DNA of 64,000 nt from Dethiosulfovibrio peptidovorans DSM 11002. GTDB taxonomy: Bacteria; Synergistota; Synergistia; Synergistales; Dethiosulfovibrionaceae. The stretch spans positions 1 through 64,000 of the forward strand of contig NZ_ABTR02000001.1 in assembly GCF_000172975.1 (NCBI RefSeq). Reading direction: 5' to 3'. This document shows, in pieces, positions 1,366 to 20,841 of the stretch; position 1 is the first letter of the stretch; the number at the start of each line of letters is the position of its first letter. The notes below the pieces were generated by a model. That model was not told the origin of the DNA and made no database searches. It was given only the letters and a program-made list of their open reading frames with translations. A program made the position numbers and the translations under genes.

Positions 1366-1367
1366 AT

Positions 1368-4189: not shown

Positions 4190-6645
4190 TTCATCACCGC
4201 CTGGATAACGCCGCTGGAGACGCTCCCGGGAGGAAGGAACACAAGTGCGTTGTCTCCTCTCTTGATCCGTATGGAGGAGGTACAGCTGACCGGACGACCG
4301 CCCAGTATGACCAGAGCCCTGTCCGGTCGGACGTCCACCACCCGACCGAAGGCGCTCCGGCCCTTGCCGATACTCTCCCTGGCGTAGACGTTGGCGGCGG
4401 TGGATCCGGAGTTGAGCAACATCAGATACTCCGGCGGCGTAGTGTCCGAAGGACGGAAGGATATGGAGGTCTGTAGCCTGTCGAAACTGTGTTCCACCGC
4501 CATCACCCCCCCGTCCGGATGGACCCTCATGTCCAGGGGTACCGTGACCGTCTCCACTATCCCCCTGCTTACCTTCTTGACCGACAGGATGTTGTCTGCA
4601 ATGGTCTGGGCTATCGACCTGGCTCGATCCTCCGAGAGATGCTCATCTATGTACAGCTCCTTCTCCGTCCATATACTTCCTCCTCCGGACATGCCCACCA
4701 CCGGAGACACCGGAGAGGTCCCGGAGGTAGACCCCGCCAGATGGCGGAAAGCCTTGTACCTGGAACACCTCTCGTACCCCGGAGTTTTTCCGTCCTCCAG
4801 ATAGCCGCAGGGATCACCTTCGATGTAATCCTCCGAATCCGATTCGGAGTCTTCCGTCGAATGAACCGGACCGTCTACCGTCTCGACGCCGCTTCCGTCC
4901 CATCCCGAAGGCTTCGACCTCGACGTCCCGGGAGCGGAGACCGCCGATGGAGACTCTACGACCCCGCAGGTTCCATCGCTACACAAAAACGGGCAGGTCT
5001 CTTCCGACCAGATCCCGTCTATATAGCGGTTTCCACCGTCCTCGCCCGACGTCTTCTCCCTGTATCTCCTGCCGGGCTGAGACAGCGTTCCGACCTCCTC
5101 CGAGATGGAGGATCCGCCTGGAACCTGAATTATCCTCATGGAGCCGTCTTGAAGTAGCGTTTTCATCTGAGCCAGGGCCTCCCCGGCCCTGGAGTTTGCA
5201 GGGTCGTAAAGGTCTCCGAAAAGCCCTCTCTCCAGCATATCCGCCAACCCGTTGTCGTCGGTCGTCCTCTCTATACGGGTGACGCATTTACCGTCGTCGT
5301 CGAAAACCTCGTCTATCTGTCTCTGTCGCTCCCTCTTTATCATCGTGGTGGTCTGATAGGCCGGAAGCTGTATGTACCTGGTTTGGCCGTCGCTCCCTAC
5401 CCAGGTAAGAGGGTTCCCGTCCGATCCCGTCACAAGGTCCGCCTCTCCGACGTCTCTTTCCTCATAGCTCCATTCCCTCTCGGTGAGCCCTCTGTATCCG
5501 TGATCGTCGTCCCACGTCCAGGCCCGCTCGGTCTTGTGGGTGTAGGGTACGTCGTTTCTTCTTCTGTCGGGATCATACGAATTGATCTCCACTACTTCCT
5601 TCAAGATGTGGGTTTTGTCCATGTCGTAGGATCGTCTCACCTGATACTCCATGACGTGCTCGACCGTCTCGGTGGCTAACCCGCCCGTGGCATTATCGTA
5701 ATAGACCGCATCGACGGCGGTATCCTCGACGCTTCCGGCCTCGACGAGGCAGAATCTCCACAGCCGCTGTTCCTGGTCGCCTACTCTTACCACGGAGGAC
5801 TCCACGTCATAGGAGTAATCCGACACGATACTCTTTCTGATACCGGCCCCGGGAAGAAACAAGCTCGCTCCATAGGATTCGACCACGTTTATAGGCGACA
5901 ATAGGGTATATCTCCAAGACAGGGTCCCCCCCGGCAAGGCGGTGGTCCCCCGCTTCGTGATCCGCTTCAACGATCCAGAGGGAGTCGTCCCATAATAGCC
6001 GCCTCCAGGACCGTCTTCGTCTACCGAACCGGAGGAGTCTCCCCGGCGTCCCAGGATAACCACCACGCCGGAGGCGTACCCGTCGAGATCCAGATCCCGG
6101 GCCTGTACGTCGTCCAGGTTCAACCCCTTGCAGGGATAGGTTTTACAAGGCCGGGGCGGAGCTACTTTCAGGGTTCCGTCCTGGGTCATATAGGCGATGG
6201 CTCCCCCGAGGGTGGCGAGGTCCAAAACGGCGTTCGCCGCCGTCTGGCCCGAAACCAGGTGTCGGGCGTCCACCGGGACGTCTCTGTCCAGAGTCACGTC
6301 CGCTTTCAACCCGCACCCCTCCGCCAGCTCGGACAAGACATCTCCCAGGGTGGATCCTTTTATCTGGTGAGGCAACAGAGGGCTTTTCATGAGCCGGAAC
6401 CCCGCATCGTAGCCGGAGAGGGACCACAACACCCGTCCGTCCTCGGCGTCCCCCAGTTTATCCGCCCGGGACACCAGCCCGTTTTCCATGATCCCCGGGA
6501 CCGTCCAAGATCCACCAAGCTCCGGAGGACTCCCCGCAGGCAACAGTACCTTTCCCTGCCATGTCCCTATGAGGGCCCGTAATTCTCTTCTATAGGAAAA
6601 CTCCACATATCCATCCGGCAGGGCCGGGGCCTGTATTTCCCGCAC
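4186..6645 (-). CDS. Tail hub / tail-tip protein (gpD or gp44-like hub region)
   Basis: 819 aa starting with GTG at 6645, which shares a base with the preceding TAG stop and has GGAGGTGA upstream. Residues about 75-190 resemble the hub segment of phage tail proteins: a SLSGYDAGFRL stretch, then a 'LGDVLSELAEGCGLKADVTLD' region, then 'NAVLDLATLGGAIAYMTQDG TL', which is typical of gpD/gp44-type hubs. The C-terminal part (GRVVDVRPDRALVILGGRPV) looks like a small beta-barrel. It is translationally coupled to both neighbours. The hub role is an inference from these motifs and from gene order. Confidence 0.65.
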   Translation of the reverse strand: MREIQAPALPDGYVEFSYRRELRALIGTWQGKVLLPAGSPPELGGSWTVPGIMENGLVSRADKLGDAEDGRVLWSLSGYDAGFRLMKSPLLPHQIKGSTLGDVLSELAEGCGLKADVTLDRDVPVDARHLVSGQTAANAVLDLATLGGAIAYMTQDGTLKVAPPRPCKTYPCKGLNLDDVQARDLDLDGYASGVVVILGRRGDSSGSVDEDGPGGGYYGTTPSGSLKRITKRGTTALPGGTLSWRYTLLSPINVVESYGASLFLPGAGIRKSIVSDYSYDVESSVVRVGDQEQRLWRFCLVEAGSVEDTAVDAVYYDNATGGLATETVEHVMEYQVRRSYDMDKTHILKEVVEINSYDPDRRRNDVPYTHKTERAWTWDDDHGYRGLTEREWSYEERDVGEADLVTGSDGNPLTWVGSDGQTRYIQLPAYQTTTMIKRERQRQIDEVFDDDGKCVTRIERTTDDNGLADMLERGLFGDLYDPANSRAGEALAQMKTLLQDGSMRIIQVPGGSSISEEVGTLSQPGRRYREKTSGEDGGNRYIDGIWSEETCPFLCSDGTCGVVESPSAVSAPGTSRSKPSGWDGSGVETVDGPVHSTEDSESDSEDYIEGDPCGYLEDGKTPGYERCSRYKAFRHLAGSTSGTSPVSPVVGMSGGGSIWTEKELYIDEHLSEDRARSIAQTIADNILSVKKVSRGIVETVTVPLDMRVHPDGGVMAVEHSFDRLQTSISFRPSDTTPPEYLMLLNSGSTAANVYARESIGKGRSAFGRVVDVRPDRALVILGGRPVSCTSSIRIKRGDNALVFLPPGSVSSGVIQAVMK

Positions 6646-7421
6646 TACTTCACCTCCAAAACGACTTCCGCCTCGGCGATGTCCGACCGCCTGGGCCTCG
6701 ATGTCACCGCTATCATGGGATCTCCGCCGGAGGAGCCCTCGACCGGCAGGAAAACCGACCATATCGGCAGGTATCCGACCCATCCGTAGACCACTCCGCC
6801 AGATGGATGTATCGACACCGGAATCTCTCTGGTAGTCCGGGCCACGCCGTTCACATCCGCCCAGGGCCTTATCATGTGGGCCGACGCCGGAAGCCCCGAC
6901 ACCCAGGCGGGAACGCCCGAGAGATCCACCGACGCCGCCTCGCCTCTGGAAAGGACGGCGGAGAGTTCCGAGGTCCATCTCATGGCCCCAGAGACGCAAA
7001 GGTCCTCCCAGTCGCAGAGTCGTCCGGTCTCTCCGAATACCGGACGGTCCACCACCCACCGAGGCGATACGCTGGCGTCCGCCTCCACGGGGCACAACAT
7101 CCAGCGGAACGGACGGAAAACCTGCATATCCTCCGATCGCAGACCCCTAAAGGACACGTCCAACCTGGTCAGCTTACCGGCATTCGTGAGAGGTTCGAAT
7201 CGAAACGCCGGACGACACAAACCGACCCTGCCGACCTGCAAAGTCTCCAGATACAACAAAATAGTCCGAGGCTCCACCTCCAGGGTCAAAACATCGTGAG
7301 TCTCCTGCCTCGTAACGTTGGCCACCGCCGTCTCTGGCTCTCCGTTCAGGCTGACAGCCAGGCAGAGAGGCGGTTCCCCGCCGCAAAGATGCAGACTTGC
7401 CCAGCAGGATACGCTATCCAT
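6645..7421 (-). CDS. Phage tail protein, function unknown
   Basis: 258 aa, beginning 3 bp past the upstream gene and overlapping the hub gene start. No motif is recognised beyond scattered Trp/Cys pairs (WEDLCVSGAMRW, VGYLPIWSVFLPV). Its place between a 120-aa protein and the hub corresponds to distal tail or tail-tip adaptor proteins in siphoviruses. That role is inferred from synteny alone. Confidence 0.7.
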   Translation of the reverse strand: MDSVSCWASLHLCGGEPPLCLAVSLNGEPETAVANVTRQETHDVLTLEVEPRTILLYLETLQVGRVGLCRPAFRFEPLTNAGKLTRLDVSFRGLRSEDMQVFRPFRWMLCPVEADASVSPRWVVDRPVFGETGRLCDWEDLCVSGAMRWTSELSAVLSRGEAASVDLSGVPAWVSGLPASAHMIRPWADVNGVARTTREIPVSIHPSGGVVYGWVGYLPIWSVFLPVEGSSGGDPMIAVTSRPRRSDIAEAEVVLEVK

Positions 7422-7424
7422 GGG

Positions 7425-7787
7425 CTACTCCCCCGCCATAGGTTCGTCTATATCCAGGCTTCCATCGTAGGCCCTGGTGGACAAAGCCTGTATCTCGTAG
7501 GACCGACCGTCGAAAAACTCCCCGTCGACTGCCCTTATCCGGTGAAGCCCCGACAGCTTTATCTGCTCCACCACGTACTCTATTCCCTGATGGGAGAAGA
7601 CCTCGCCGACCGTGAAAAATCCCGCAGGGTGAGAGGTGAAATGCCCCTGAAAGGTGGCCCTGAAACGGACCCTGCCGCCGGGGCGACGGACGAAAACAGT
7701 CTCCCCCGAGGCTGTGACCACCATCTCGCCGTGGGGGATCTCCTCGATATCCGTAAGTTCGTAGTTGGCCACCGGGTCGTAGCTCAT
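7425..7787 (-). CDS. Small tail-module protein after the tape measure
   Basis: 120 aa, beta-rich (VRFRATFQGHFTSHPAGFFTVGEVF, IEYVVEQIKLSGLHRIRAV). A GGAGGGTGGT site precedes the ATG. It lies 13 bp past the tape-measure gene, so it is probably a tail completion or distal tail component. The family is not recognised. Confidence 0.7.
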   Translation of the reverse strand: MSYDPVANYELTDIEEIPHGEMVVTASGETVFVRRPGGRVRFRATFQGHFTSHPAGFFTVGEVFSHQGIEYVVEQIKLSGLHRIRAVDGEFFDGRSYEIQALSTRAYDGSLDIDEPMAGE

Positions 7788-7800
7788 GGGACCACCCTCC

Positions 7801-10428
7801 TCAGTACCCCAGATCGAATGACTTGACTATCCCCCGGCCGATCTCCCGACCGGTCTTGTCCGCATCCTCCGGACGTTTTACGTTGACCGTGCCTATCTGT
7901 ATCGATATAGGGGCGGACACCTTGTTGACCGTCCCGCCGAATTCGCCCTTACCGGAGAACTTCGGCATCCTGCTTTGAACCCCCAGGTTGGAAAGCTCCA
8001 GCTTGGCGTGGTAGGCTTTCAGATCTCCCATCAAGGCGGAGCTGAATTTCATACCGGCATATTCTTTTTCTATCTGATCTCCGGTTTTTTTGACGAGCTC
8101 GTCCGTCCTCTTCTGAATGAGCTTCATGGCCTCTGTCAGAGCGGGACCTTTTATAAAGCCGTCCTGAATGGCCCCGGTCAGAATCTTTACGATGGAATCC
8201 TGCCCCTTGCCCATGGCCCCGGCTATGGAGGCCATAAGAGCGTCTCCCCCCTCCGTTCCCATCTTCTCCATGGCGGATACGAAGGCGGTGGCCATATAGG
8301 GATCCTCGTCGGCGAGAGACTTCTTTATCTCCTCTACCGCCTTCAATATGGAGTCTCTCATCACGGCATCGGCCTCTTCGGCGGAGACTCCCAATGTTTC
8401 CATCGCCTCTTTGCCGCCGGCTTTTATCTCCACTACACGCTTCTTAAGGTCCGAGATGGCTAAATCTATCTTTCTGATCGGCTTATCGCTAACCCACCTG
8501 GCTAGGAGATCGTCGGGGTTATCAAAAAGCTCTTCATCATCGAATAGACTAGCTAGAGAAAACGGGTCCTCTTCAAGCTTTTTCATATCATCCGATACGT
8601 TTTTGATCTTATCGTCCAAATCCTCGACGGCCTTGGAGGTCTCTTTTAGCGATACACTCGTCTTTTTGTTCTTCTCTATCCATTTCTGAATCGGTTCAGG
8701 CAGACTTTCGAGGGCCTCTTTATCTCCCTTCAAGGCCTCTTCGAACCCTTCCAGATCCTCCAGCCCCATATCCAGGCCTATATTCGCCCCGGCACCACCA
8801 AGAGCGAGCTTAAGCTCGTAGAACCAAGCTCCCTTGTACTTGATCAACGCCCGCATCTCGTTGCGAAAGTCCTTGGCCCAGCGAGACAGTCGTCCACTGT
8901 CTCCCAACTTATTAATCATCTCCGATAATGCCGCTCCGCTTTTTATAAGCCACTTAGCGATGGAAGTACCCTCGATAAAAGCCGCCACCTTGTTGAACTT
9001 CTCCATCATATCGGCCAAGTCGCCAAAAGATCCCGCAAGGCTTAGAACTCCTCCGGCTATGGACAAAACCTTACCGGAGGCCCACCCGTATATTATGATC
9101 TTGGTCAGGCTGTCGGCGTGTTCTATCAGGAGCTCCCAGGGGATCATGTCGGCTATGGTCTTAAGCGATCGATAGATAGCCTTCAGCATTCTGCCGAAGG
9201 TCTCGCACTGATCGGTGAAGGAGGCGACATCGACCTTCTCCAACGCCTCTTTGAACTCTTCCACTTGTATATTGCCTAACCCCAATCCTTCGAAGAAGGC
9301 ATCAACCGAGCCCTTAAGCACCTGGTTTTCGTCCGCCCATTCGACGAGAACCTCCAGCAGTTCGGCAACGTGGGCGACATATCGAGACACCTCGTCTCCC
9401 AACGGCTCAAGGAGCTTGTCTTTCGCGGTATTCCTAAGTGATTGAAGAGACTCTATCAACGTAGATGTTTCCTCGTCGGCCGTTTCGATCGCTCCCTCGG
9501 CCTTCGACAAGACCTCCACCAACGCTCCGAGCTCGAAGCGGTTCTCCCTGATAGCCGCCGCCATGTCCGGACCTGCATCGGCGCCGAAATACTTCACGGC
9601 CTTGTTTATGGCATCTCCTTCGGTGGTGGCGTTTTTTATGCTATTCGTAAGGTCCTTCCATCCCTGAACCAGGTTCCGGACACCGCTTCGGGTCATGTTG
9701 GTTATCGCCTGGCCAAGACCGGACAGGGCCTTTTCGGTGCTGACCCCTTCCTTCTCCCACTTGCCCAACAACCCGAGAGCCTCCTCCAGGGAGAAGCCCA
9801 GCTGCCTGAACTTGGTTCCATAGGTAACGGCCTTCTCCGCCAGGTTTTCTATGGAAGCCCCCGTCGATCTGGATGCAACGAACAGCGCATCCAACGCCTC
9901 GGTCTGTTTATCCGTCGAGATGGACCAGTCCCCGAAGAGCCTGGAACCCAGACGAACCGCGTTGTTGAGATCCACTCCGGTGACGTCCGACAGGGACAGA
10001 TACTGCTGGGTCAATTTCTCCAGAGCCTCACCGGCGGCCCCGGTCGCCACCCGAACAGCCGCCAGAGCCTGGGCCACCTCTCCGTATCCGGACACCGGGT
10101 TTTCCCTGAAAAGCCTTCTGACGATGTCCTCGTATTCTTTCAGGGCCTCTTCGCCTTCTCCGGTTTTCTGGGCGACGACCGCCATGGCCTCCTCGAGGTC
10201 CTGGGCCACCGAGAAAGCGGCCAATCCGGTTCCCGCGGCGGCGGTTTTGGCCGCAAGGCCTACCGCCACAAGCCCCTTCATAGCCGGGTCGAAAACCTTC
10301 CCTACCGACTGGCCGTAGGTCTCCAGGCGGTGACCGTTCAGATAGAGGGTTTTCTGCAATCTGTCGAAGGCGCTCACGGCCTGATCTACACGAGCCCCTA
10401 CGTTTATCTGTACGTCCCGCTTGGACAA
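7801..10428 (-). CDS. Tail tape measure protein
   Basis: 875 aa from a TTG start at 10428, chosen because GGAGGTGATC ends two bases before it; a longer upstream reading would cross a terminator hairpin. The N-terminal third is Ala/Leu-rich and helical, with the usual tape-measure block (LSDVTGVDLNNAVRLGSRLF, GASIENLAEKAVTYGTKF). This is followed by hydrophobic stretches near residues 440-510 and Glu/Lys-rich coiled coils near 570-800. At roughly 1.5 angstrom per residue, the family's usual rule, the tail would be about 130 nm. It is the largest late gene and follows the tail chaperone, but cargo genes separate the two. Confidence 0.9.
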   Translation of the reverse strand: MSKRDVQINVGARVDQAVSAFDRLQKTLYLNGHRLETYGQSVGKVFDPAMKGLVAVGLAAKTAAAGTGLAAFSVAQDLEEAMAVVAQKTGEGEEALKEYEDIVRRLFRENPVSGYGEVAQALAAVRVATGAAGEALEKLTQQYLSLSDVTGVDLNNAVRLGSRLFGDWSISTDKQTEALDALFVASRSTGASIENLAEKAVTYGTKFRQLGFSLEEALGLLGKWEKEGVSTEKALSGLGQAITNMTRSGVRNLVQGWKDLTNSIKNATTEGDAINKAVKYFGADAGPDMAAAIRENRFELGALVEVLSKAEGAIETADEETSTLIESLQSLRNTAKDKLLEPLGDEVSRYVAHVAELLEVLVEWADENQVLKGSVDAFFEGLGLGNIQVEEFKEALEKVDVASFTDQCETFGRMLKAIYRSLKTIADMIPWELLIEHADSLTKIIIYGWASGKVLSIAGGVLSLAGSFGDLADMMEKFNKVAAFIEGTSIAKWLIKSGAALSEMINKLGDSGRLSRWAKDFRNEMRALIKYKGAWFYELKLALGGAGANIGLDMGLEDLEGFEEALKGDKEALESLPEPIQKWIEKNKKTSVSLKETSKAVEDLDDKIKNVSDDMKKLEEDPFSLASLFDDEELFDNPDDLLARWVSDKPIRKIDLAISDLKKRVVEIKAGGKEAMETLGVSAEEADAVMRDSILKAVEEIKKSLADEDPYMATAFVSAMEKMGTEGGDALMASIAGAMGKGQDSIVKILTGAIQDGFIKGPALTEAMKLIQKRTDELVKKTGDQIEKEYAGMKFSSALMGDLKAYHAKLELSNLGVQSRMPKFSGKGEFGGTVNKVSAPISIQIGTVNVKRPEDADKTGREIGRGIVKSFDLGY

Positions 10429-10450
10429 AAGATCACCTCCGGAGAGAAAT

Positions 10451-10482
10451 AAAAAAAAGCCGCCCCTGAGGGACGACTTTTT
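10451..10482. terminator. Bidirectional terminator between tape measure and toxin genes
   Basis: An 8-bp stem (GCCGCCCC / GGGACGAC with two G-T pairs) around a TGA loop is flanked by eight A residues on the left and five T residues on the right, so it can end transcripts in both directions. Leftward reading places it 20 bp before the tape-measure start, where it would reduce read-through from the cargo region into the late genes. Confidence 0.75.
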
Positions 10483-10502
10483 GAACGAGAGAGTAAGCTT
10501 CG

Positions 10503-10534
10503 TTGCGTATAGTAGCACTTAGTGCTACTATACT
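10503..10534. promoter_or_regulatory. Palindromic operator/promoter of the HigBA-type module
   Basis: A perfect palindrome, GTATAGTAGCAC-TTA-GTGCTACTATAC (10507-10533), overlaps two -10-like hexamers (TATAGT at 10508, TATACT at 10529), immediately before the toxin ATG at 10538. Type II antitoxins usually bind such sites to repress their own operon. With the second -10 the message would be nearly leaderless. No good ribosome-binding site precedes the toxin ATG. Confidence 0.65.
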
Positions 10535-10537
10535 AGC

Positions 10538-10912
10538 ATGAACCGGATATTTATAACAAAGGCATTTTATCGTTGGATGTCCAAAAATCGCATCAACAAC
10601 GACAGCATCATAGCCGCCGTAAAAGAGATGGAATCCGGTCTAATCGATGCGAACCTTGGAGGATACATCTGCAAAAAAAGGATTCCTCTCCCGGGGCAAG
10701 GGAAAAGGGGTAGCGCAAGAACGATAGTCGCAACCAAGCAGGAGAATAGCTGGTTCTTCATTTATGGATTTAACAAGAACGAGCGTTCAAACATATCCTC
10801 GAAAGAACTCGAGTCCTTTCAGGAAATGGCAAGAGGGTTGCTGTCTCTGACAAATCAAAAACTATCTTTAGCTACTAGAAATGGCGCATTGAAGGAGGTG
10901 TCGTCAAAATGA
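10538..10912 (+). CDS. higB: Type II toxin, RelE/ParE (HigB-2-like)
   Basis: 124 aa. The central block RIPLPGQGKRGSARTIVA followed by WFFIYGFNKNER is characteristic of HigB-type RelE/ParE toxins (COG4737), ribosome-dependent mRNA interferases. The antitoxin gene follows with an ATGA overlap, the toxin-first order usual for HigBA. The pair lies on the strand opposite the late genes, with its own palindromic operator and terminators on both sides, as expected for prophage cargo. Target and activity are inferred from the family. Confidence 0.88.
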   Translation: MNRIFITKAFYRWMSKNRINNDSIIAAVKEMESGLIDANLGGYICKKRIPLPGQGKRGSARTIVATKQENSWFFIYGFNKNERSNISSKELESFQEMARGLLSLTNQKLSLATRNGALKEVSSK

Positions 10913-11211
10913 GCCGTATACTTGAAGAAATGCACGAAACAGCTCGTGACCTGTACGAAGCGGGAAGCTTTTCCAAAAACCAGATGCAAAACTTCGACGT
11001 AATGTGTCTCCCGAAGGTTCCCAACTATTCTCCGGAGAACATCAAACATATTCGTTCTTTGTACGATCTAAGTCAAAAAAACTTAGCTTTTCTCCTTAAC
11101 GTCAGTCTATCTACTCTACAAAAGTGGGAAACCGGAGCGAAAAAACCGGCAGGGGCGGCCAGAAAACTCCTGAACGTCTTGGAATCAAAAGGAATATCCG
11201 CTCTGCTTTAA
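10909..11211 (+). CDS. higA: XRE-family antitoxin (HigA-2-like)
   Basis: 100 aa, starting inside the toxin stop (ATGA), with GAAGGAGGTG upstream. The C-terminal half is a helix-turn-helix (IRSLYDLSQKNLAFLLNVS, then LQKWETGAKKPAGAARKLL), matching HigA antitoxins (COG2944). It should bind the toxin and the palindrome at 10507-10533. The N-terminal 35 residues are the probable toxin-binding part. Confidence 0.88.
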   Translation: MSRILEEMHETARDLYEAGSFSKNQMQNFDVMCLPKVPNYSPENIKHIRSLYDLSQKNLAFLLNVSLSTLQKWETGAKKPAGAARKLLNVLESKGISALL

Positions 11212-11223
11212 ACGCACATTACC

Positions 11224-11251
11224 AAGGGCCATCATCTCGACGATGGCCCTT
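11224..11251 (+). terminator. Terminator after the toxin-antitoxin operon
   Basis: A perfect 10-bp stem, AAGGGCCATC / GATGGCCCTT, with an 8-base loop lies 12 bp past the antitoxin stop. The following tract is only weakly T-rich (TGATGACTTT). Confidence 0.7.
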
Positions 11252-11279
11252 GATGACTTTAATCAGTATTGGTTAACCT

Positions 11280-12410
11280 TTACTCCACCATGGCCGTTAT
11301 ACCGAAGTGATCCAGAAACCACTCCCTGCCTCTTTCGTTGTACACGAAGGTGTTGACCTCCTTGCTGGAATAACGGGACTTGCTTCTTATCCAGTAGCCG
11401 TATTCTCCGTCCTCCCCCGCCGGGCTCTTCAGATGATGGGACTTGGCCACCTTGCCCACCACCTGGGCGGAGACTCCACACTCCTTCCCTATGTCGGTGG
11501 CAGAGTACATCGGCTCGGCGGATCTGGGAAGCAGACGAGTCAGATCGACGTCTGTAACCAGCTCGCCGTACTTGGCCATAAAGACGGTCTTGGACTCTTT
11601 GGTCATGACGTCCTTGAAGGCGTCCATGCCCTTCAGGATCATCTTGGCCATTCGACAGTTGGCGTTTCGCTCCATGATGGCGAGACGTTTTTCCGCAAGC
11701 TCTTCCTTTCTGCCGTTCTTGGATGGATCGACGCCGGGAAGAGCGTAGCTTCCGGTTTTTCGTATGGTCGGCAAAAGCTCGTGGGTAACCCAGCGTTTGA
11801 ATCGTTTGGCCCCTGGCTTGTTCGACCGCATGATCAGGATATACAAGCCGGACTCGGAAATCAGTAGAGTGTCTCTGTTTTGACCTGATACGAAAAGTTT
11901 TCGTATCAGCTTCTCATCCTCGTCCAGCTTCGAGCATGATTTACTGACATCCGATAACCCCAGCACATCACATACATCTTTTGCCACCCACCAAGGGTTG
12001 CCGTTGATGAATACCACCCTTACCACCATTCGCTCGAACTCGAACAACGTCACATCAGAATCACCAGTTACGGGATTAGCCTCCAGCACATCTATCATCT
12101 CTCCTGCCTCCCTTCGGCTCTCTGCGGCACGAAAAAAATCGAAAGCGGACCTTATCTCGCCTTTCTCGTCGTTTCTTTCCATCACGGCGACGGTTTCCGA
12201 TAAATCAACGGAACGCCCCTGTGCCTCCATCCGATTTACGTAAAGCCATGCCACATACACGACCCAGCCGTAAAAAGTTCTCCTATCGACGTTTTCAGGC
12301 AGATCACGCAACCCCGACGATCTATACGAAAAAACGTCATTTACGGCCCTTTTTATCAATTCCCGACCTTGAACATTCTTGCTTCCTGTTTTTTCCTTAA
12401 TTTCAAGCAT
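11280..12410 (-). CDS. BRO-N domain phage antirepressor
   Basis: 376 aa from ATG 12410 (MLEIKEKT), preceded by AAGGGGGC. Residues about 125-225 form a Bro-N domain (VVFINGNPWWVAKDVCDVLG ... LISESGLYILIMRSNKPGAKRFKRWVTHELLPTIR). The last 80 residues resemble a KilAC/ANT-like DNA-binding tail (YSATDIGKECGVSAQVVGKVA). Proteins of this type antagonise phage repressors. Its place inside the tail module, far from both repressor loci, is unusual. A second in-frame start at 12455 would put the beginning of the gene inside a strong hairpin. Confidence 0.85.
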   Translation of the reverse strand: MLEIKEKTGSKNVQGRELIKRAVNDVFSYRSSGLRDLPENVDRRTFYGWVVYVAWLYVNRMEAQGRSVDLSETVAVMERNDEKGEIRSAFDFFRAAESRREAGEMIDVLEANPVTGDSDVTLFEFERMVVRVVFINGNPWWVAKDVCDVLGLSDVSKSCSKLDEDEKLIRKLFVSGQNRDTLLISESGLYILIMRSNKPGAKRFKRWVTHELLPTIRKTGSYALPGVDPSKNGRKEELAEKRLAIMERNANCRMAKMILKGMDAFKDVMTKESKTVFMAKYGELVTDVDLTRLLPRSAEPMYSATDIGKECGVSAQVVGKVAKSHHLKSPAGEDGEYGYWIRSKSRYSSKEVNTFVYNERGREWFLDHFGITAMVE

Positions 12411-12433
12411 AAAAAAAGCCCCCTTACGTCCAT

Positions 12434-12487
12434 AGGGACAGGGAGCCATCGACATGGTACAATTATTCCATGTGAGGGCTTGTCCCT
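12434..12487. other. Multi-helix RNA/DNA hairpin before the BRO antirepressor
   Basis: Nested inverted repeats AGGGACA/TGTCCCT, AGCC/GGCT and ACATGG/CCATGT enclose a 10-base AT-rich centre. On the leftward transcript it is followed within 25 nt by GGGGGC and seven T residues, just before the antirepressor ATG. It could form part of an attenuator. The element could also act as an operator on DNA. Confidence 0.5.
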
Positions 12488-12543
12488 TGTTCTACCCCGT
12501 TTGATCGTCTGTCCGCCAAGAGAGATCGATCATGCGGGGTTTC

Positions 12544-12732
12544 CTATTTAGATTTCGCGTTCTTCAGTTTTTCTACCGCTTCTTCGCTAAAGAGATAGTT
12601 CCGACTTCCAGCTTCCCTCATCTCACAATCATCAAGGCCGATCTTTTTTCCCAACCTGATGACGTAGGACGGATTGAGTTCAAGCTTTTCCGCAACCTCT
12701 TTGGTAATAAAAACAGTCCTTACGTCCGACAT
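12544..12732 (-). CDS. Small MerR/excisionase-type HTH protein
   Basis: 62 aa. The sequence VFITKEVAEKLELNPSYVIRLGKKIG followed by NYLFSEEAVEKLKNAK has the winged-helix layout of small MerR-like or excisionase-like DNA-binding proteins (recognition helix, then a short wing and C-terminal helix). It lies upstream of the BRO antirepressor on the same strand and may regulate the cargo block. Its upstream region contains a TGACGTCA palindrome near 12773. Confidence 0.65.
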   Translation of the reverse strand: MSDVRTVFITKEVAEKLELNPSYVIRLGKKIGLDDCEMREAGSRNYLFSEEAVEKLKNAKSK

Positions 12733-12799
12733 CGCAACACATCCTTTTTTAGAGGATATCAGTATTGATGTCTGACGTCAAGATACGCCTAGATAGCTA

Positions 12800-13814
12800 T
12801 CAAGGGAGAAAGTCCAAGTATGAATCATCACTCATATTAACAAACTCATCGTTTAACCTTATACTTATTTCCTCCTTCCCCCCAACACAAAAATGGCGAA
12901 GAGTCACCGTGTCCTCCGCTGAAAGATCACCTTTATTCAATTTACCTAACAAGACGGTAGCCTCTTCTCCGGTCATTGTTATATCGTTCAACAGCCCTGT
13001 TTTCTTTGGAACGAGAAGCTTTTTAGGATCAATCTTAGTCGGTAGAACATCCCAAGAACTAGGATCTAGGTCAACACTAAAGACATCCCATTTTTCATTT
13101 ATCGCTTTATGGGATACATCCTCTTCGCCATCAACTAGGGCTCCTTGTGCTTTTAAAATTGGATTCCTACACCCCAGGTAGACTTCTTTTATTTCTTGTT
13201 TTTTAGCGTACATATGGAGCCCAGGTTTGATAGGATACGCCATGCTAGGACATAGCATAATATCGCTAGTAGAATCAAAACCACAATTTGGATCGGATTG
13301 AGTTTCTCGACACTCTTCAAACAAATCAGACACAATTCTTACAACCCGAACCTCGTCTTCGTATTCCCAATCAGAGCTTTTAGTTAACAAAAAATCCGAA
13401 AGCATTTTCTTAACTCTAATTGAGCTATCCTCATCTAAATAACCTGGAGCTTTAGGGGGAAGCTCCATCAGGTCCTCAATAGACTCTCCCGAAGAGATCA
13501 AATACATAGCATGGACATGCTGCCTGGTTTCGCAATTTAAGATATACTCCTCTCTATCATTACAATAACGAACGTTTCCATCATTTACGGTAATAACGTT
13601 ATACAAATCACTGCAAAAAAAAGCATCGCTAACATCATATCCAAGAACGAAGCCTTTATGATTCTGCCCATAATGAGACCACATCAAAGAATTCAATGGA
13701 TTTCTTGTAAGAGAGAGAACTAAAAACTTCTCTTGCATCGATGTGATGTACTCAAAAACCTTAGGGCTATCTCCGTCAATCGACAATGACAGCTCAAAAG
13801 GATCATTGAAATAT
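12800..13814 (-). pseudogene. DUF2971 protein, C-terminal fragment split off by an IS element
   Basis: The frame continues without interruption from the IS junction: Tyr-Phe-Asn-Asp-Pro-Phe-Glu-Leu-Ser, then about 328 residues to the stop at 12800. FNDPFELS and the later LMWSHYGQNHKGFVLGYD are the signature blocks of the DUF2971 family. The fragment has only weak internal starts (a TTG at 13786). The missing 28 N-terminal codons lie beyond the IS at 15487-15570, in frame once one copy of the 4-bp duplication is removed. The gene is AT-rich compared with the tail genes. DUF2971 proteins are of unknown function and occur often near defence genes. Confidence 0.85.
13811..13814. repeat. Target-site duplication, left copy (ATAT)
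   Basis: ATAT here and at 15487-15490 flank the insertion sequence. A 5-bp reading (GATAT) is also possible on the minus strand. Joining the flanks after removing one copy restores the DUF2971 reading frame. Confidence 0.75.
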
Positions 13815-13889
13815 CCCTACCTGCCAAAATAGGTGTCGCATGATAGACTAGTTTAGCGAGTCGAGAGAGGCTCCCTGGAGGTGCGACAC

Positions 13890-14387
13890 ATGGCGAGGTA
13901 CAGCAAAGAACAAAAAGAGGCAATCAAAAAGAGAATGATGCCGCCGGAGAACATGTCCATACCTAAATTATCGAAAGAGACTGGCATAACGGTGACAACC
14001 CTCTACAACTGGAGAAAAGAGCTCCGTGCGTCCGGCAAAGCAGCTCCCTGCGACGAAGATAGACCGGATAGCTGGAGTTCCAGAGACAAGTTCCTCATAG
14101 TCCACGAGACCTACACCATGAACGAGGAGGAGCTGGCCCGGTACTGCAGGGAAAAAGGACTGTACGTCGAACAGGTTATAAGCTGGCGAAACTCCTGCGA
14201 GGAGGCAAACGATGGCCAGAGCCTCAAGGTCAGGGAGCTTATGCATGAGGTAAGCCAGGTAAAGAAGGATCACAAGAAGCTGGCACAGGAGCTCAGACGT
14301 AAGGACAAAGCCCTGGCTGAAGCGGCTGCCCTGCTGGTATTGAGAAAAAAAGTCCAGGCGATCTGGGGGGAAAACGAGGACGACTGA
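13890..14387 (+). CDS. IS3-family transposase, OrfA part
   Basis: 165 aa from ATG 13890, with GGAGG nine bases upstream. The N-terminus is a helix-turn-helix (MSIPKLSKETGITVTTLYNWRKEL), and the C-terminus a leucine-zipper-like coiled coil (VSQVKKDHKKLAQELRRKDK). A run of seven A residues at 14345-14351, read A_AAA_AAA in this frame, is a classical -1 slippery site that would fuse it to the catalytic part. OrfA is longer than the usual 90-110 aa of IS3 elements. Confidence 0.85.
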   Translation: MARYSKEQKEAIKKRMMPPENMSIPKLSKETGITVTTLYNWRKELRASGKAAPCDEDRPDSWSSRDKFLIVHETYTMNEEELARYCREKGLYVEQVISWRNSCEEANDGQSLKVRELMHEVSQVKKDHKKLAQELRRKDKALAEAAALLVLRKKVQAIWGENEDD

Positions 14388-15439
14388 TCGGTGCCTCGGA
14401 TCGCCGTAAAGCAGTAGAACTGATCGAAGAAGCCGTATCGAGCGGAGCTACCCAGGCTAAAGCCTGTAGAGAGGTCGGCATCACTGAGAGAACCTTCCAG
14501 AGATGGTGCAAAGAGGGCCAGGTAAAAGAGGACCAAAGACCTCACGCTCCCAGAAAGACGCCTCAGAAGCTATCGCAAGAGGAAGAACGAAAGGTACTAG
14601 AGATAGCCAACAGCCCGGAATACGCCAGCGCACCGCCAGCCCAGATAGTGAACGATCTACTGGAAAAAGGCATATACATCGCCTCTGAATCGACATTCTA
14701 CAGGATACTCAGGAAACACAGACAGATCAACCATAGAGGCAGAACGGCGGCTCCGGTAAAAAAACCTATAACAACCCATAAAGCCGACGGTCCTAACCAG
14801 CTGTGGTCCTGGGATATAACTTACATCTGCGGACCGGCCAAGGGCCTGTTCTACTACCTGTACCTCATAATAGACCTCTACAGCAGAAAGATAGTCGGCT
14901 GGGAGATCTACGACGAAGAATCAGGAGAACTGGCGTCGGAGGTGGTCACCAAGGCGGTCCTGTCGGAAAAGATCCGCCTTGCCGATAAACCGCTGATCCT
15001 GCACGCCGACAACGGAAGCCCCATGAAAAGCGCCACATTGAGGGCCACCATGGAAAAACTGGGAGTACTGTTCTCCCACAGCAGACCGAGGGTAAGCAAC
15101 GATAACCCCTACAGTGAATCGATCTTCAAGACCCTGAAATACAGACCTGCCTTCCCCAGTGGAGGCTTCAAGGACATAGAGGATGCGAGAGCCTGGACCT
15201 ACCGGTTCGTGTCCTGGTACAACCATACCCACCGTCACAGCGCCTTAAACTACGTGACGCCGGAGCAGAGGCATAAAGGAAAAGCCCCGGAGATACTGGC
15301 GAAGAGGAAGAAAACCCTGGAAGAAGCCAAAAGAAAACACCCGGACAGATGGAGAAACAGACCGATAAGAAACTGCTCCATCGAGGAGACGGTCTATCTG
15401 AACCCGGAGAAAGAGCCCCGGGAAAAGCGCAGAGACTGA
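14351..15439 (+). CDS. IS3-family transposase, DDE catalytic part (reached by -1 frameshift)
   Basis: The -1 frame is open from the A7 slippery site to the stop at 15439, giving a fused transposase of about 516 aa. It starts with a second HTH-like region (AKACREVGITERTFQRWCKE). The DDE integrase core follows: Asp in LWSWDITYICG, Asp in LILHADNGSPMKSA, and Glu in SNDNPYSESIFKTLKYRP. Without frameshifting, the first ATG in this frame is at 14648, inside the catalytic region and lacking the upstream HTH region. Confidence 0.88.
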   Translation, partial: SPGDLGGKRGRLIGASDRRKAVELIEEAVSSGATQAKACREVGITERTFQRWCKEGQVKEDQRPHAPRKTPQKLSQEEERKVLEIANSPEYASAPPAQIVNDLLEKGIYIASESTFYRILRKHRQINHRGRTAAPVKKPITTHKADGPNQLWSWDITYICGPAKGLFYYLYLIIDLYSRKIVGWEIYDEESGELASEVVTKAVLSEKIRLADKPLILHADNGSPMKSATLRATMEKLGVLFSHSRPRVSNDNPYSESIFKTLKYRPAFPSGGFKDIEDARAWTYRFVSWYNHTHRHSALNYVTPEQRHKGKAPEILAKRKKTLEEAKRKHPDRWRNRPIRNCSIEETVYLNPEKEPREKRRD

Positions 15440-15486
15440 GTTAGTCCAATTCGATCTTTTTGCGACATCTCGCTTGACAGGCTCCG

Positions 15487-15570
15487 ATATCTAGGCTCCC
15501 TAAATCCAACTTGGCTGCTTCTCAATGCAGCCAAACCAGCGTCGTAACCATAATACTTGTATAGAATCAC
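15487..15570 (-). pseudogene. DUF2971 protein, N-terminal fragment beyond the IS
   Basis: Twenty-eight codons from GTG 15570 (GGTGGTAAT upstream) read MILYKYYGYDAGLAALRSSQ and on to FREPRY, ending at the ATAT duplication. The LYKYY start followed by an FREPRY-FNDPFELS junction is what an intact DUF2971 N-terminus looks like. With the fragment at 12800-13814 it reconstitutes a gene of about 364 codons. Confidence 0.8.
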
Positions 15571-15708
15571 ATTACCACCAACCCAACACTAAATTAGAAA
15601 CGCTTCTTGATTTAGTATTGTATCAGATAAGAAGAAATACTGCTTCTCGTCACTTTTCCCCCTTCTTTATGAAAAGACATCATAACCACTCTCAGATACT
15701 GACTACCC

Positions 15709-16266
15709 CTAAATCCCCACAACCCCATCCTTTACCAGGTCCTCTATCGTCCGTCGCTTTCCCTTGCCCCGCTCTTCGTCGGGGTCCAGGATTTCCTGTG
15801 CAGCCTCGATAAAGCCCACGAACTGCCAGTAGGTCCAGCGATGGAACATCGTCTCCTCGTCTATTCCGAAGTTGCGCCTCATATGAAGGCAGAACTTCGG
15901 CCATGCCAGAGGATCCCCCTCCGAGTCATCCGCTCCGTCCTCGCCGTGGGTCTTGAGATCCTCCAATATATCCGGCACCTTGTTGACCTCCCAGACTATG
16001 GCCAATAGACCGGACTTCACATCGGCATCCTCCGCCGGAATGGAATCCGCCGTGGGGAAGGCATCCATCAATATAGGGTCCAGAACCCTCCGTTCTTCAA
16101 GCAAGGCATCCATGGCCTCTCTGCCGTCTTCGGGAATCTCGCCGTCGCACAGCTCCCTTATGGACACGACGAGGGCGGAAACGTCCGCCCTCGTCAGATA
16201 CCGCAGTTTATGAGGCCGCCCGCCTATGGTAACGACCAACCGGGCAGGCTCGGGGAAATGGCGCAT
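15709..16266 (-). CDS. Tail assembly chaperone (gpG-like), probable
   Basis: 185 aa, starting within the stop of the tail tube gene (TAATG). It is acidic and helical with a conserved-looking C-terminal region (LHMRRNFGIDEETMFHRWTYWQFVGFIEAAQEI). A small helical protein directly after the major tail protein is normally the tail assembly chaperone that wraps the tape measure. I see no clear slippery sequence for a gpGT-type fusion at its end. The tape-measure gene is 5.3 kb further on, separated by inserted cargo. Confidence 0.65.
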   Translation of the reverse strand: MRHFPEPARLVVTIGGRPHKLRYLTRADVSALVVSIRELCDGEIPEDGREAMDALLEERRVLDPILMDAFPTADSIPAEDADVKSGLLAIVWEVNKVPDILEDLKTHGEDGADDSEGDPLAWPKFCLHMRRNFGIDEETMFHRWTYWQFVGFIEAAQEILDPDEERGKGKRRTIEDLVKDGVVGI

Positions 16267-17036
16267 TACCAGCCCCCTCCGGGAACCACCTCCGCCGGCA
16301 CATCCATAACCGTCATAAGCTGACGCCCCGCCGGTTTCGTGCTGTCCGCTATTGCCGTAACCTCCACGGCCAGAGGCGACTCGGAAGCCTCCTTGAACGC
16401 CATGGAGAAGTTACCCTTCACCTTGCCCTTCCATATCCGGACGTGACGATACTTTCCGTCTCTGCGCTTGTGATAGAAATCGACCCGGAAAGTCTTGTCC
16501 GTCGAGGTTCCGCCGCCGACGCCGAACCCTTTGCTTTCGTAGGTCTTATACGTGTAGCTCACCTTGACGTCGTCGCCGTCGGCTATCTTGGCGGAGTCGG
16601 GCACTCTGTAGATGGTTCCGTTCAACCGGTCCAGATAATAGTCCACTCCCTCGGTCAAAGCCGTGCCGTCCACGGTGGTTACCGTGGCGTCCCCTTCCAC
16701 CCTGCCCTTGCCGAGCATGGTATGGACGGAATCGAACAGCGTCACAAGCTCGTCTGCAACGGTGGCGGTTCCGGCGTTTTCTGTTACCGGATCGTACTCC
16801 GGCATCAGACGGCAGACCATATCCAGGTTCGTCTCCAGCAGATTGAAGCTCAGGGTCAGCTCCTCACTGACCAGAGCAGAAAGGACCACCGTCGCCGGGA
16901 ACCCGGCTTTCAGATCGTAAGTCTCCTTTCCGTGCTCGAAGGTCAGATCGTCCTTCAGCTGACCGACATCCTCGCCGTCGACGAACATGCGGCCGGATCC
17001 CAGAACTATATCGTTGGAATTCCTTACGTTCGCCAT
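16266..17036 (-). CDS. Major tail tube protein
   Basis: 256 aa, with GAGAGGGGCGATAGGA upstream. The sequence is beta-rich (LTFEHGKETYDLKAGFPATVVLSALVSEELTLSF) and carries an inserted domain near residues 95-165 (VTTVDGTALTEGVDYYLDRLNGTIYRV), similar to Ig-like or DUF insertions in phage tube proteins. Its position between the tail terminator and the chaperone, and the absence of a sheath gene, indicate a flexible siphovirus tail. Confidence 0.8.
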   Translation of the reverse strand: MANVRNSNDIVLGSGRMFVDGEDVGQLKDDLTFEHGKETYDLKAGFPATVVLSALVSEELTLSFNLLETNLDMVCRLMPEYDPVTENAGTATVADELVTLFDSVHTMLGKGRVEGDATVTTVDGTALTEGVDYYLDRLNGTIYRVPDSAKIADGDDVKVSYTYKTYESKGFGVGGGTSTDKTFRVDFYHKRRDGKYRHVRIWKGKVKGNFSMAFKEASESPLAVEVTAIADSTKPAGRQLMTVMDVPAEVVPGGGW

Positions 17037-17052
17037 TCCTATCGCCCCTCTC

Positions 17053-17490
17053 TCACCATTCCGTGACCGTCAGCTCCATCTCCCCCACGAAGGCGGGAGA
17101 CTGATCGGAGCTGAAGAGATCGTATCCGGTGTAGGTTATTCTGTACTCGCTCCCCACCACCTCCAGGGAGGACAGCACCAGCTCGCCCAGTTCGTCCACC
17201 TGCAGAAAGCCGGGAAACGTTATCTTGTTGCCGTCCCGCTCCTCTCCTCCGTCGTTCAACACCGCCCACATGAGATCTATTTTGTGCTCTCCACGACCGA
17301 CTCCATCGAAATCGCTCCTGTCGGGAGCGACCACGATCGCAGGAAGCTCGTCGTTTCCGGGAGGACGCCGGGCGTTATATCCGGCCATCACGATCGGCTC
17401 TCTGCCGAAACGGTCCAAACAGAAAGCCCGGACCTCTTCGGACCGGGCTATGGAGTCTCTTATCTCCATCATTACCTGAGTCAATCTCAC
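17053..17490 (-). CDS. Tail terminator / head-tail completion protein, probable
   Basis: 145 aa from GTG 17490 (an alternative ATG lies at 17472). The N-terminal helix (LTQVMMEIRDSIARSEEVRAF), followed by a beta-rich body with LPAIVVAPDRSDFDG, resembles gpU-like tail terminator proteins. It sits just before the tube gene, the usual place. Assigned by synteny and general layout. Confidence 0.6.
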   Translation of the reverse strand: MRLTQVMMEIRDSIARSEEVRAFCLDRFGREPIVMAGYNARRPPGNDELPAIVVAPDRSDFDGVGRGEHKIDLMWAVLNDGGEERDGNKITFPGFLQVDELGELVLSSLEVVGSEYRITYTGYDLFSSDQSPAFVGEMELTVTEW

Positions 17491-17494
17491 CTCG

Positions 17495-18133
17495 TCACCA
17501 CCAGCTTCCGTAGACTCTGTATTTTCTCTTGCTCTTTTTCGTGGACCTCTTCATATCGTCCTCCATGTATCCGTCGATCTTCTTCACGAAATATCCCGGA
17601 ATTCTGGGAACCAGAACCTCCCTCATAGGGCCTATGGTCGGCCTGGCGGGGAGGATTATCTCCCTCGTCTCTTTCCGAAGACGTACGCCTTTTTTCAGCA
17701 CCTTGGGCCATTTTTTGCCTCTGGCTCCGGACCACCAGAACCGCCGCATCTTTTCGGTAACCGGAAGACGCCGTCCCTTTTCCTGCATAGATCCCAGATA
17801 CACGGCGCTCTTCGAGAGCCACCCCACGGTCAGGGAGCCGTCGTCTTTATACTGATAGCCCACGGCCTTTCGAAGCTTGCCGAGAGGTCCGCTTCTTACC
17901 TTCTTTTTTTTCATGACCCTGAGTTTAGACTTCGCCTTGACGCCACGGGCTACGCCGGACAGAGGAGCGTAGCGTCTTCCTCCGGGAGCTCCGCTCTCTA
18001 TGCCTTTTTTTATCTCCTTCTGCATCATCCATCCGACAGACTTCAAGGCCCTCCGGCGAAATTCGGGAAATTCCCTGATAACGTCCTCCACCCATGGAGT
18101 GGCCATATCCTTCCAGGAAACTGTGACGGACAT
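17495..18133 (-). CDS. Phage virion morphogenesis protein (gpZ / HK97 gp10-like)
   Basis: 212 aa and very basic (many Lys/Arg). The N-terminal part (FPEFRRRALKSVGWMMQKEIKKGIESGAPGG...YAPLSG), with a Gly-Arg-rich middle, resembles the minor tail or neck proteins of the gpZ/HK97-gp10 group, which act in head-tail joining. It lies between the head-tail attachment gene and the tail terminator. Confidence 0.65.
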   Translation of the reverse strand: MSVTVSWKDMATPWVEDVIREFPEFRRRALKSVGWMMQKEIKKGIESGAPGGRRYAPLSGVARGVKAKSKLRVMKKKKVRSGPLGKLRKAVGYQYKDDGSLTVGWLSKSAVYLGSMQEKGRRLPVTEKMRRFWWSGARGKKWPKVLKKGVRLRKETREIILPARPTIGPMREVLVPRIPGYFVKKIDGYMEDDMKRSTKKSKRKYRVYGSWW

Positions 18134-18148
18134 AGGATCACCTCCCCA

Positions 18149-18466
18149 TTACAGAAACGACCGATCCGTCCGGATCTCCAACAGAGCCGTCGTCATGGAA
18201 CGGGAGATCTCTCTAACCACCGACCAGACCTTCCCGTCGGCCTCGACGACCTCGTCTCCTTCGCAGGGATCCACATCGGAAAGTCTTATCCTCAAAGTTC
18301 CTTCCGTGGAGGAACCGTCCGACCCGAAGCCCGTTCCATCGGTTGCGGTCCTGCCCTTGCGGATGATCGCCCGGATCTCGCTGCCGTTATAGACCACCGT
18401 GTCGGCCCAATCACCTTTGAACAGGGCTTCCACCGTAGATGTCAGGTGATCCCGGAAAGATCCCAT
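18149..18466 (-). CDS. Head-tail attachment protein, probable
   Basis: 105 aa. A small beta-rich protein (ADTVVYNGSEIRAIIRKGR ... LRIRLSDVDPCEGDEVVEADGKVWSVV) has the length and layout of gpFII-like head-tail joining proteins. It starts in the stop of the preceding decoration-protein gene (one-base overlap at 18466). Confidence 0.6.
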   Translation of the reverse strand: MGSFRDHLTSTVEALFKGDWADTVVYNGSEIRAIIRKGRTATDGTGFGSDGSSTEGTLRIRLSDVDPCEGDEVVEADGKVWSVVREISRSMTTALLEIRTDRSFL

Positions 18467-18789
18467 CAGTCGATCTTCACCTCTCCGAAGTTCGCCGAAG
18501 CCACCTTCGGAGTCCAGGCATACCCCGCCAGGGGTTTGTTCCCCGTACCGTCCCTGGTCAGGCTTCCGGCAGAGGCATCCCAGTAAAGAGCCTCTCCGGG
18601 AGCGAAGGCCGTCCCCGTCACGGCGGGCAGCCGGAACACCCCCACCACGGCCAGAACTCCCATCTTCCCAGCCGGTATATCGGTAGTGGCCACTCCGATC
18701 CTTCCCCCCAAAACGACCACATCGTCTACGGACACATCCTCGGTCGGCGTGTAATCCATCCTGCCGCCTATCTCCACGTAAGTTCTCAC
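18466..18789 (-). CDS. Capsid decoration protein, DUF2190-like
   Basis: 107 aa. The pattern VDYTPTEDVSVDDVVVLGG...GVATTDIPAGKMGVLAVVGVFRLPAV...GEALYWDASAGSLT is typical of DUF2190 proteins, small capsid-surface or fibre-like proteins found just after capsid genes in many siphoviruses. It lies 33 bp past the protease-capsid gene. Confidence 0.75.
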   Translation of the reverse strand: MRTYVEIGGRMDYTPTEDVSVDDVVVLGGRIGVATTDIPAGKMGVLAVVGVFRLPAVTGTAFAPGEALYWDASAGSLTRDGTGNKPLAGYAWTPKVASANFGEVKID

Positions 18790-18822
18790 ACGAATCGCCT
18801 CCTTATGAAAAAACCCCGAAGC

Positions 18823-20841
18823 CTACGCCCCGGGGTTCTTCTGGAAACCGCGCCAATCCATAGCCTTGGCTCCCACGTCTATTCGCACCTTGTAGCTCGT
18901 TCCGTCCACGTTCCATCCCTGCTGCTGTTCCAGATAGGGTTCCTTGATCCCGTTCAGGAAGAACAGCTTCACCGTCTTGCCCTTCTCGGCGGCCATGTAG
19001 AAAGCGGTCTCGCTCACGTCGTCCAATCTGGGATCGGACACGAGCTCGAAGGCTCCGGCGTAGGGGTTTGCTCCTCCTCCGTTGGCTTTGTTCGCCGCGG
19101 TGTCCACCGACAGAGGAGTTTCGGTCTGCTTGAGGAACCTCCTGGCCGCAAGCTCCAGAGCCACCGGCACCACCAGGAACTTGGGAATGATGTTCAGCCG
19201 CCTCTTTCCGGAAAGGTCCGTCTGCCGCTTCATGGCCTGCACCATGAGGCTTAGCGCCGTCAAAGTGGCCTCGAAATCGGTGAAGCTGAAAGCCGCCGCA
19301 GGCTGAAGGTTTCCGTGATGGGTACAGAAAAGATCCTTCTTGTCGCCCATCTTGGGGTTATCCAGAAAAGCCTGGTAGCCCACGTCGGCCACCTTGCGCC
19401 TGGCGGCCTCGCCCATCTTCCGGGGAATATCGGTCAGTACGCCCAGTGCGTCGTTTACGATCGACTGTCTGGATATGGAGAACATACGGCCGAAGGTCCC
19501 TATCTTCCAGGCCTCCGACTCCTCTCCCATGGATCCGCTCTTGTACTCTCCTGATTCCGGCAGAGGAAGCAGATCGTCCACCTCTCCGGCCCTCGCCCCG
19601 GTGTGTTCCTTGAAATCGGTCACGACGCCGGAGTCGTCCATCCACTTAAGATAGCTCTCCTCCTGAACGCCCCACCCTTCCATAAGAGAGACGTTCGCAA
19701 CGCTTCCCAGGATGACGGGAAGGTCCGAGGTGGTCAGGGCGCGGCCTATCATCTCCATAGGATTTCCCCCGACCCGCTCGCCCATCCGGGTCAGACATTC
19801 CTCGGCCATTCTCTCCAGCCTGTAGCCTCTCAGATCCATGGATCCGGCGGCAGGTTCCTCTACGGGCAGACCGCCGCGGATCAGGAGCGCATCTCTGGCG
19901 GCGGAACGGAACTTCTCCTTCTCGTCCTCCGTCACCCTGCCGGGAACGGAGATTGCCTGCCGCATCTCCTTGAGCTTTTTCATGACCTCGGATCTCACCG
20001 TGTCGAGTTCCGCACCGGAACGGATGAATTCGCCAAGATCGATATCGAAGGATCTTCCCATCTCCTGGATCTCCGCCACCCTCTCCCGCTCGGCCCTGAT
20101 AGCCCGGACTACTGTTTCCCCTGAAGAAGGGTTGCCTCTTTCGCCGTTTCGGAGGTCGTCCGCAGCGGACCGGTTCTCCTCCCTCCCATCGTTTACGGCG
20201 AGGTCGTTTCTCTTAGGCTCCGGGGCCGCACCGTTCCCGACTTCGTCGCCGGGCAAAGACAAATTTCCTTTCACTCCGTCATCTCCTCCTTTTTCATCGA
20301 CACTCCGTCCCACCCCCACCGACGGATCGGCGGGAACCGACACGATGGAAATCTCCAGTCCTTCCCATCTGGTGCCCACGTAACAGGGCCCGGCAAAACG
20401 ACCGTTGCTGGACGTACCACCGGCCGGAACCTTTTCCCAGTTCTCCACCCTGTAGCCCACCGATACGCTCTTGAGAGATCCGGCCAGAACCTTTCTGTAG
20501 ATCCTGTCGCTTTCCTCGTCGTCGTCGAACCGGACTAAAGCCCGGCCCTTTCTGGCGGACTCGTCTATCCACACCTTCTCGATCGATCCTATGGGAACGT
20601 CGGATTTGTGGTTCCAGAGCAAAACCCCCATTTCCTCCAACCGTTTGAGGTCGGCGGCCCCCTGATCGTGAGACAAATATTCCACGTCCCCCCAGCGAGA
20701 AACCGGAGACTCGGACGAAAAAGAGAGCTCCACCGTTCTGGAGCTCTCCTCGACATTATTAGCCTCGACCCCGGCTATCTCTCTGTAATAGGTTTCTCCT
20801 GCCTCAGACTGTACGGACCTGCAACCTCTGGAATAGGTCAC
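18823..20841 (-). CDS. Prohead protease-major capsid protein fusion
   Basis: 672 aa from GTG 20841 (GGAGAGTGA upstream). Residues about 35-195 are an HK97-type (U35/S78) prohead protease: His in VLLWNHKSDVPIG, Ser in AGSLKSVSVGY, acidic residue in WEGLEISIVSVPAD. Residues 195-330 are a charged, low-complexity and helical linker that may act as internal scaffold (delta-like domain). Residues about 330-672 are an HK97-fold capsid protein (SGSMGEESEAWKIGTFGRMF, RQSIVNDALGVL). In most phages these are two genes; here one polypeptide must cleave itself during maturation. Confidence 0.85.
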   Translation of the reverse strand: MTYSRGCRSVQSEAGETYYREIAGVEANNVEESSRTVELSFSSESPVSRWGDVEYLSHDQGAADLKRLEEMGVLLWNHKSDVPIGSIEKVWIDESARKGRALVRFDDDEESDRIYRKVLAGSLKSVSVGYRVENWEKVPAGGTSSNGRFAGPCYVGTRWEGLEISIVSVPADPSVGVGRSVDEKGGDDGVKGNLSLPGDEVGNGAAPEPKRNDLAVNDGREENRSAADDLRNGERGNPSSGETVVRAIRAERERVAEIQEMGRSFDIDLGEFIRSGAELDTVRSEVMKKLKEMRQAISVPGRVTEDEKEKFRSAARDALLIRGGLPVEEPAAGSMDLRGYRLERMAEECLTRMGERVGGNPMEMIGRALTTSDLPVILGSVANVSLMEGWGVQEESYLKWMDDSGVVTDFKEHTGARAGEVDDLLPLPESGEYKSGSMGEESEAWKIGTFGRMFSISRQSIVNDALGVLTDIPRKMGEAARRKVADVGYQAFLDNPKMGDKKDLFCTHHGNLQPAAAFSFTDFEATLTALSLMVQAMKRQTDLSGKRRLNIIPKFLVVPVALELAARRFLKQTETPLSVDTAANKANGGGANPYAGAFELVSDPRLDDVSETAFYMAAEKGKTVKLFFLNGIKEPYLEQQQGWNVDGTSYKVRIDVGAKAMDWRGFQKNPGA

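Follow-up and report, generated by a model that had tools for sequence, protein, structure and literature searches.

Insertion sequences of the IS3 family are recognized by an OrfA with a helix-turn-helix (HTH) domain, an OrfB with a DDE transposase core and a short duplication of the target, and their ends usually, although not absolutely, read 5'-TG...CA-3'. Phage tail modules are known as a place of moron genes, and the moron slots of prophages harbor accessory or defence genes, the low-GC accessory genes replacing one another at a constant position amid conserved structural genes. The DUF2971 family (PF11185; PDC-S31; phrog_1762), whose members share the motifs YKY, FNDPFE, LMWxHYG and WxYExExR and are matched by Pfam and PADLOC profiles, is mentioned in a single paper of the literature searched under the name DUF2971, and in none under the name PDC-S31.

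The locus described here occurs in the window, i.e., the whole stretch of 64,000 nucleotides of Dethiosulfovibrio peptidovorans DSM 11002 that was analysed, which corresponds to the beginning of the large contig; the genome has 2,576,359 bases in three contigs. Within a prophage recognized by its terminase, portal, capsid, tail-tube and tape-measure genes, a DUF2971 gene running on the minus strand from 15570 to 12800 is split by a 1,672-bp IS3-family element (Table 1). Compared to the family in general, the encoded protein belongs to a longer subfamily, whose members reach about 340 residues and are extended at the C-terminus, and the present copy is interrupted.

Anatomy of the interrupted gene and of its insertion sequence

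Table 1. Features of the interrupted DUF2971 gene, its insertion sequence and the surrounding cargo slot (positions in the window).
Feature	Position	Strand	Basis or remark
Tape-measure gene	7801..10518	-	Left border of slot; phrog_991 1.6e-31, PhageMin_Tail
RelE toxin gene	10538-10912	+	Cargo slot
NadS-like HTH gene	10909-11211	+	Cargo slot; with RelE spans 10538..11211
BRO-N anti-repressor-like gene	11280..12455	-	Cargo slot; Pfam Bro-N 1.5e-23
Small HTH gene	12544..12732	-	Weak excisionase/RacA-type matches; within the stretch unique to this prophage, with DUF2971
3' part of DUF2971 gene, including one ATAT	12800..13814	-	Stop 12800-12802; Pfam DUF2971, PADLOC and phrog matches
Target-site duplication ATAT, copy 1	13811..13814
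IS3-family insertion sequence, 1,672 bp	13815..15486	+	Ends CCCTACC / GGCTCCG; identical complete copy C1:475750-477421; 96% copy in G001
OrfA (HTH_Tnp_1)	13881..14387	+	Pfam
A7G run	14345..14352	+	Lies between OrfA and OrfB; putative site of a -1 frameshift
OrfB (rve, DDE transposase)	14648..15439	+	Frame open from A7G run onward
Target-site duplication ATAT, copy 2	15487..15490
5' part of DUF2971 gene (residues 1-27/28)	15491..15570	-	Aligns to N-terminus of intact homologues
Gene in tail-chaperone position	15709..16266	-	Right border of slot; by position, putative chaperone
Tail-tube gene	16266-17036		phrog_807; adjoins 15709..16266 gene

Joined with a single copy of the flanking ATAT repeats, the two parts of the gene give 1,095 nt, corresponding to 364 codons and a stop, with a GTG start at 15570 and the reading ...GFREPRY|FNDPFELS... 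across the join. The original prediction of one IS3-family insertion with an ATAT duplication, made from the letters of the DNA, is thus exact to the base, and the junction and the length of about 364 codons that it proposed agree with the rebuilt frame. The 3' part matches the full DUF2971 profile of Pfam (PF11185, positions 1-89) at 3.6e-12 and 47.9 bits, for a cut-off of 22, as well as PADLOC PDC-S31 (1.1e-18) and phrog_1762 (5.2e-28). The uninterrupted frame with both YKY and FNDPFE that is present in the homologues is absent here, the element standing between YKY and FND.

A tblastn search with the joined protein, the check suggested along with the prediction, retrieved uninterrupted plasmid genes from Acinetobacter, Pseudomonas and Comamonas, which are 28-40% identical and match in one piece from residue 1; the join aligns without any insertion or deletion (GFREPRYFNDPFE vs GFRTPTYFNDPFE). 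Single-sequence searches of the genomes and viral contigs returned no relative, but an alignment of the plasmid homologues used as query did find them. Seven uninterrupted homologues of about 340 residues, 29-39% identical, come from Agitococcus, Halomonas, Psychromonas, two Pseudomonas and two viral contigs; the match spans residues 1-351 or more in six of them and 2-308 in the seventh, and in the alignment all seven are gapless at the insertion point and possess the C-terminal extension. The opposite case, in which the two halves would occur as independent genes, was not seen among the homologues found.

With respect to the element itself, OrfA is recognized as HTH_Tnp_1 at 2.2e-10 and OrfB, which would be entered in the -1 frame at the A7G run, by NCBIfam transpos_IS3 (178.8 bits, cut-off 160) and by Pfam rve. 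The termini are imperfect inverted repeats (CCCTACCTGCCAA / CGGAGCCTGTCAA). The second complete copy in the same genome matches the element at 100% over its full 1,672 bases. A third copy has been broken by another insertion (5-bp overlap CTTAC), and both of its pieces are 100% identical to the element. Neither of these two copies shows a target duplication at its ends, a lack of uniformity that weighs against the insertion reading. The complete copy of the sister species (G001), however, carries GAGC on both sides, and the ends of the element and its 4-bp duplication are therefore fixed. The copies outside the window correspond to L029, L030 and L042/L004. The organization of the two frames, the A7G run located between them and the short target duplication all resemble the IS3 family, whereas the ends read CCC...CCG instead of TG...CA in every copy read, sister species included, and the 4-bp duplication is seen in two copies only, the present one and that of G001. 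Since the homologues align in one piece and without gap, and the ends of the element recur in other copies, a chance arrangement is ruled out.

Another way to obtain such a locus is an assembly chimera, in which the assembler would have used the repeated element to join unrelated flanks. The element is indeed repeated identically in the genome, the closure of which was prevented by repeats (PMC3035263). A chimera would nevertheless lack identical ATAT copies at the two borders of the element, and its flanks would not fit a single gene, in frame and gapless relative to its homologues; this origin appears extremely improbable. It is very probable that an active IS3-family element of Dethiosulfovibrio recently hit the prophage-borne cargo gene once, at codon 28, and that the loss was tolerated. 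As the anatomy shows, the insertion generated the 4-bp ATAT duplication, presumably by the copy-out/paste-in route of the IS3 family. The N-terminal strand, with its near-invariant YKY, is cut off from the invariant ND and all that follows in the protein, so that neither fragment should work. Prophage cargo being presumably dispensable, the loss of function was most likely tolerated.

A variable cargo slot within the tail genes

A second prophage of the same genome (C1:330-347 kb) is 99.8% identical over 10.5 kb. The repeat of tail genes corresponds to positions 1-10480 of the window and G000:C1:330672-341149 (L067:2673-13150), with a different cargo, and the large contig starts inside this 10.5-kb prophage repeat. 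Together with this second prophage, those of G001 and G003 form the close relatives, and another one of G003 and that of G006 the more distant ones, i.e., five related prophages in all. All the compared prophages differ in the interval from the tape measure to the gene adjoining the tail tube, a variable slot located at 10519-15708 in the window (compared prophages L067, L068, L069, L070 and L071). Depending on the prophage, the slot contains a RelE/HTH pair, a BRO gene, a small HTH gene and DUF2971 (window), a PIN-domain gene, a 150-aa protein and BRO (own second prophage), a 150-aa protein and BRO (G001), or a PIN gene, an orphan 291-aa gene and BRO (G006). The BRO gene is present in four of the five sister prophages. 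One G003 prophage has kept the RelE/HTH side and possesses about 28 bp in place of 11296-15708; it is a natural site devoid of BRO, HTH and DUF2971.

No counterpart of the DNA at about 12541-13810 and 15491-15705 occurs in the five related prophages, and the GC content of the DUF2971 DNA is about 40%, compared to 55-59% in the tail genes. Because of this low GC content and its restriction to a single prophage, the DUF2971 gene is shown to be a late-acquired cargo in a variable slot extending from the tail-tube region to the tape measure. The swapping of low-GC genes at a fixed place among structural genes is that of other moron slots, and the differences lie in the location of the slot, in its occurrence in Synergistota prophages and in the function of the cargo, which is predicted here.

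Some additional features of the slot deserve mention. In the own second prophage, the 3' end of the tail-tube-adjoining gene is present again as a 200-bp duplicate beyond the PIN gene (L067:15054-15255), which may be a scar left when cargo was inserted by recombination. The orphan 291-aa cargo gene (L070:11345-12220), which has no Pfam or PADLOC match over the cut-off, displays HG and SFSCCFG motifs that by eye resemble those of CHAT-type proteases. No Rfam match was found in 9000-19000, and promoter and terminator scans performed no better than shuffles.

Predicted fold and role of the DUF2971 proteins

Sixteen columns are invariant over 89 aligned sequences, including N30, D31, W77, H79, Y80, K163, E170, E172 and R174 (numbering of L074, the homologue of Halomonas dongshanensis), and judged from the alignment this set of residues is enzyme-like. 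The AlphaFold model built for the Halomonas homologue with the 88 other aligned sequences is confident (mean pLDDT 89.9, pTM 0.85). Searched against the PDB, it gave no match better than E 0.56 and hence no functional relative that would speak for defence; the fold search against viral models yielded no significant match, and the sequence search against solved structures returned nothing.

PADLOC classifies the protein as PDC-S31, a predicted single-gene phage-defence candidate. Relatives are located beside BREX genes on Acinetobacter DNA, including plasmids, and beside a SIR2/ThsA-like gene (L075, Psychromonas). On a viral contig (L151:6918-10996), a baseplate gene is followed by DUF2971 and then by an AbiL-like/PDC-M38 A-B pair on the opposite strand. 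That the family is uncharacterised and recurs near defence genes, as had been noticed beforehand, holds for these BREX, AbiL-like/PDC-M38 and SIR2/ThsA-like neighbours; such neighbourhoods are suggestive of defence. The viral contig also provides a further example of tail-module cargo for the long subfamily, at a second site. On the Acinetobacter plasmids (L027, L028), a RelE-NadS pair precedes DUF2971 and shares its strand, and in the window a RelE and NadS-like pair lies near DUF2971 on the other strand, with two genes between.

The DUF2971 protein most likely acted on its own to protect the lysogen against phages, at a probability that we would put at about one half. It could instead fulfil another moron function, such as superinfection exclusion or that of a host-modifying enzyme. 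Its occurrence in phage tail modules agrees with such a function, the defensive role being predicted, but PADLOC lists the family as a defence candidate and relatives are also found on plasmids beside BREX, and this second option is rather unlikely. A kinship of DUF2971 with the FRG or DarT domains, as an ADP-ribosyltransferase-like effector, is unlikely. The enzyme-like invariant residues would suit an ADP-ribosyltransferase, and a single profile comparison aligned LSLTRNPLNPLMWAHY with TRLLDxTxNPLVALYFA of FRG at E 0.022; the HHalign probability is nevertheless at most 2%, DarT scores near the reversed control, and in the PDB the confident model met nothing better than the E-value given above. 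Membership in the FRG/DarT-type ADP-ribosyltransferases is thus not supported by this HHalign probability or by the fold search. Coming back to defence, a fuller proposal can be put forward tentatively, as a possibility of rather low probability: members of the long subfamily would be single-protein effectors against phages, with a fold outside the PDB, and would be carried as swappable cargo in prophage tail modules, one such slot being that of Dethiosulfovibrio between the tail-tube region and the tape-measure gene; the present copy would have been silenced by the insertion sequence.

Age of the insertion and fate of the gene

The copies of the element show zero divergence, and the gene halves, both of which are otherwise open, have not decayed any further, which suggests that the insertion is recent. 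Recency had been proposed from the intact ends, frameshift site and duplication; all of them are present, and the identical copies and open halves are in line with it. Gene conversion, rather than recency, could also have kept the copies identical. The insertion may, as was also proposed, vary within the species. DUF2971 is present in 5 of 188 Synergistota genomes. Neither the gene nor its DNA was found in the 13 other genomes of the family (the species itself corresponds to one genome), and a scan of viral contigs for the uninterrupted-junction DNA did not find it.

The original prediction had also read the disruption as possibly reflecting a cost of the gene, a claim which loses its force since a single insertion in dispensable cargo is equally expected under neutrality. 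Selection of the insertion because the gene is costly to the lysogen or prophage is improbable. In its favour, about ten of 78 homologue loci in other genomes exhibit a frameshift or a stop, a count in which sequencing errors are possible, and one Acinetobacter plasmid copy is shortened and ends next to IS1008. Possible errors in draft genomes weigh on the other side, and from a single event in a single strain, cost and neutrality cannot be told apart. The loci in question include L095, L120, L126, L128, L133, L134, L136 and L138, which may be real pseudogenes or sequencing errors, and at most the broken homologues show that the gene is dispensable.

Taken as an event, the insertion is ordinary. 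The interrupted DUF2971 gene mainly represents an annotation correction, as the genome paper on D. peptidovorans reported no pseudogenes (PMC3035263). The useful outcome consists of a cargo slot common to close prophages of one genus, and of a DUF2971 subfamily, as yet uncharacterised, whose structure is confidently predicted and has no counterpart in the PDB.
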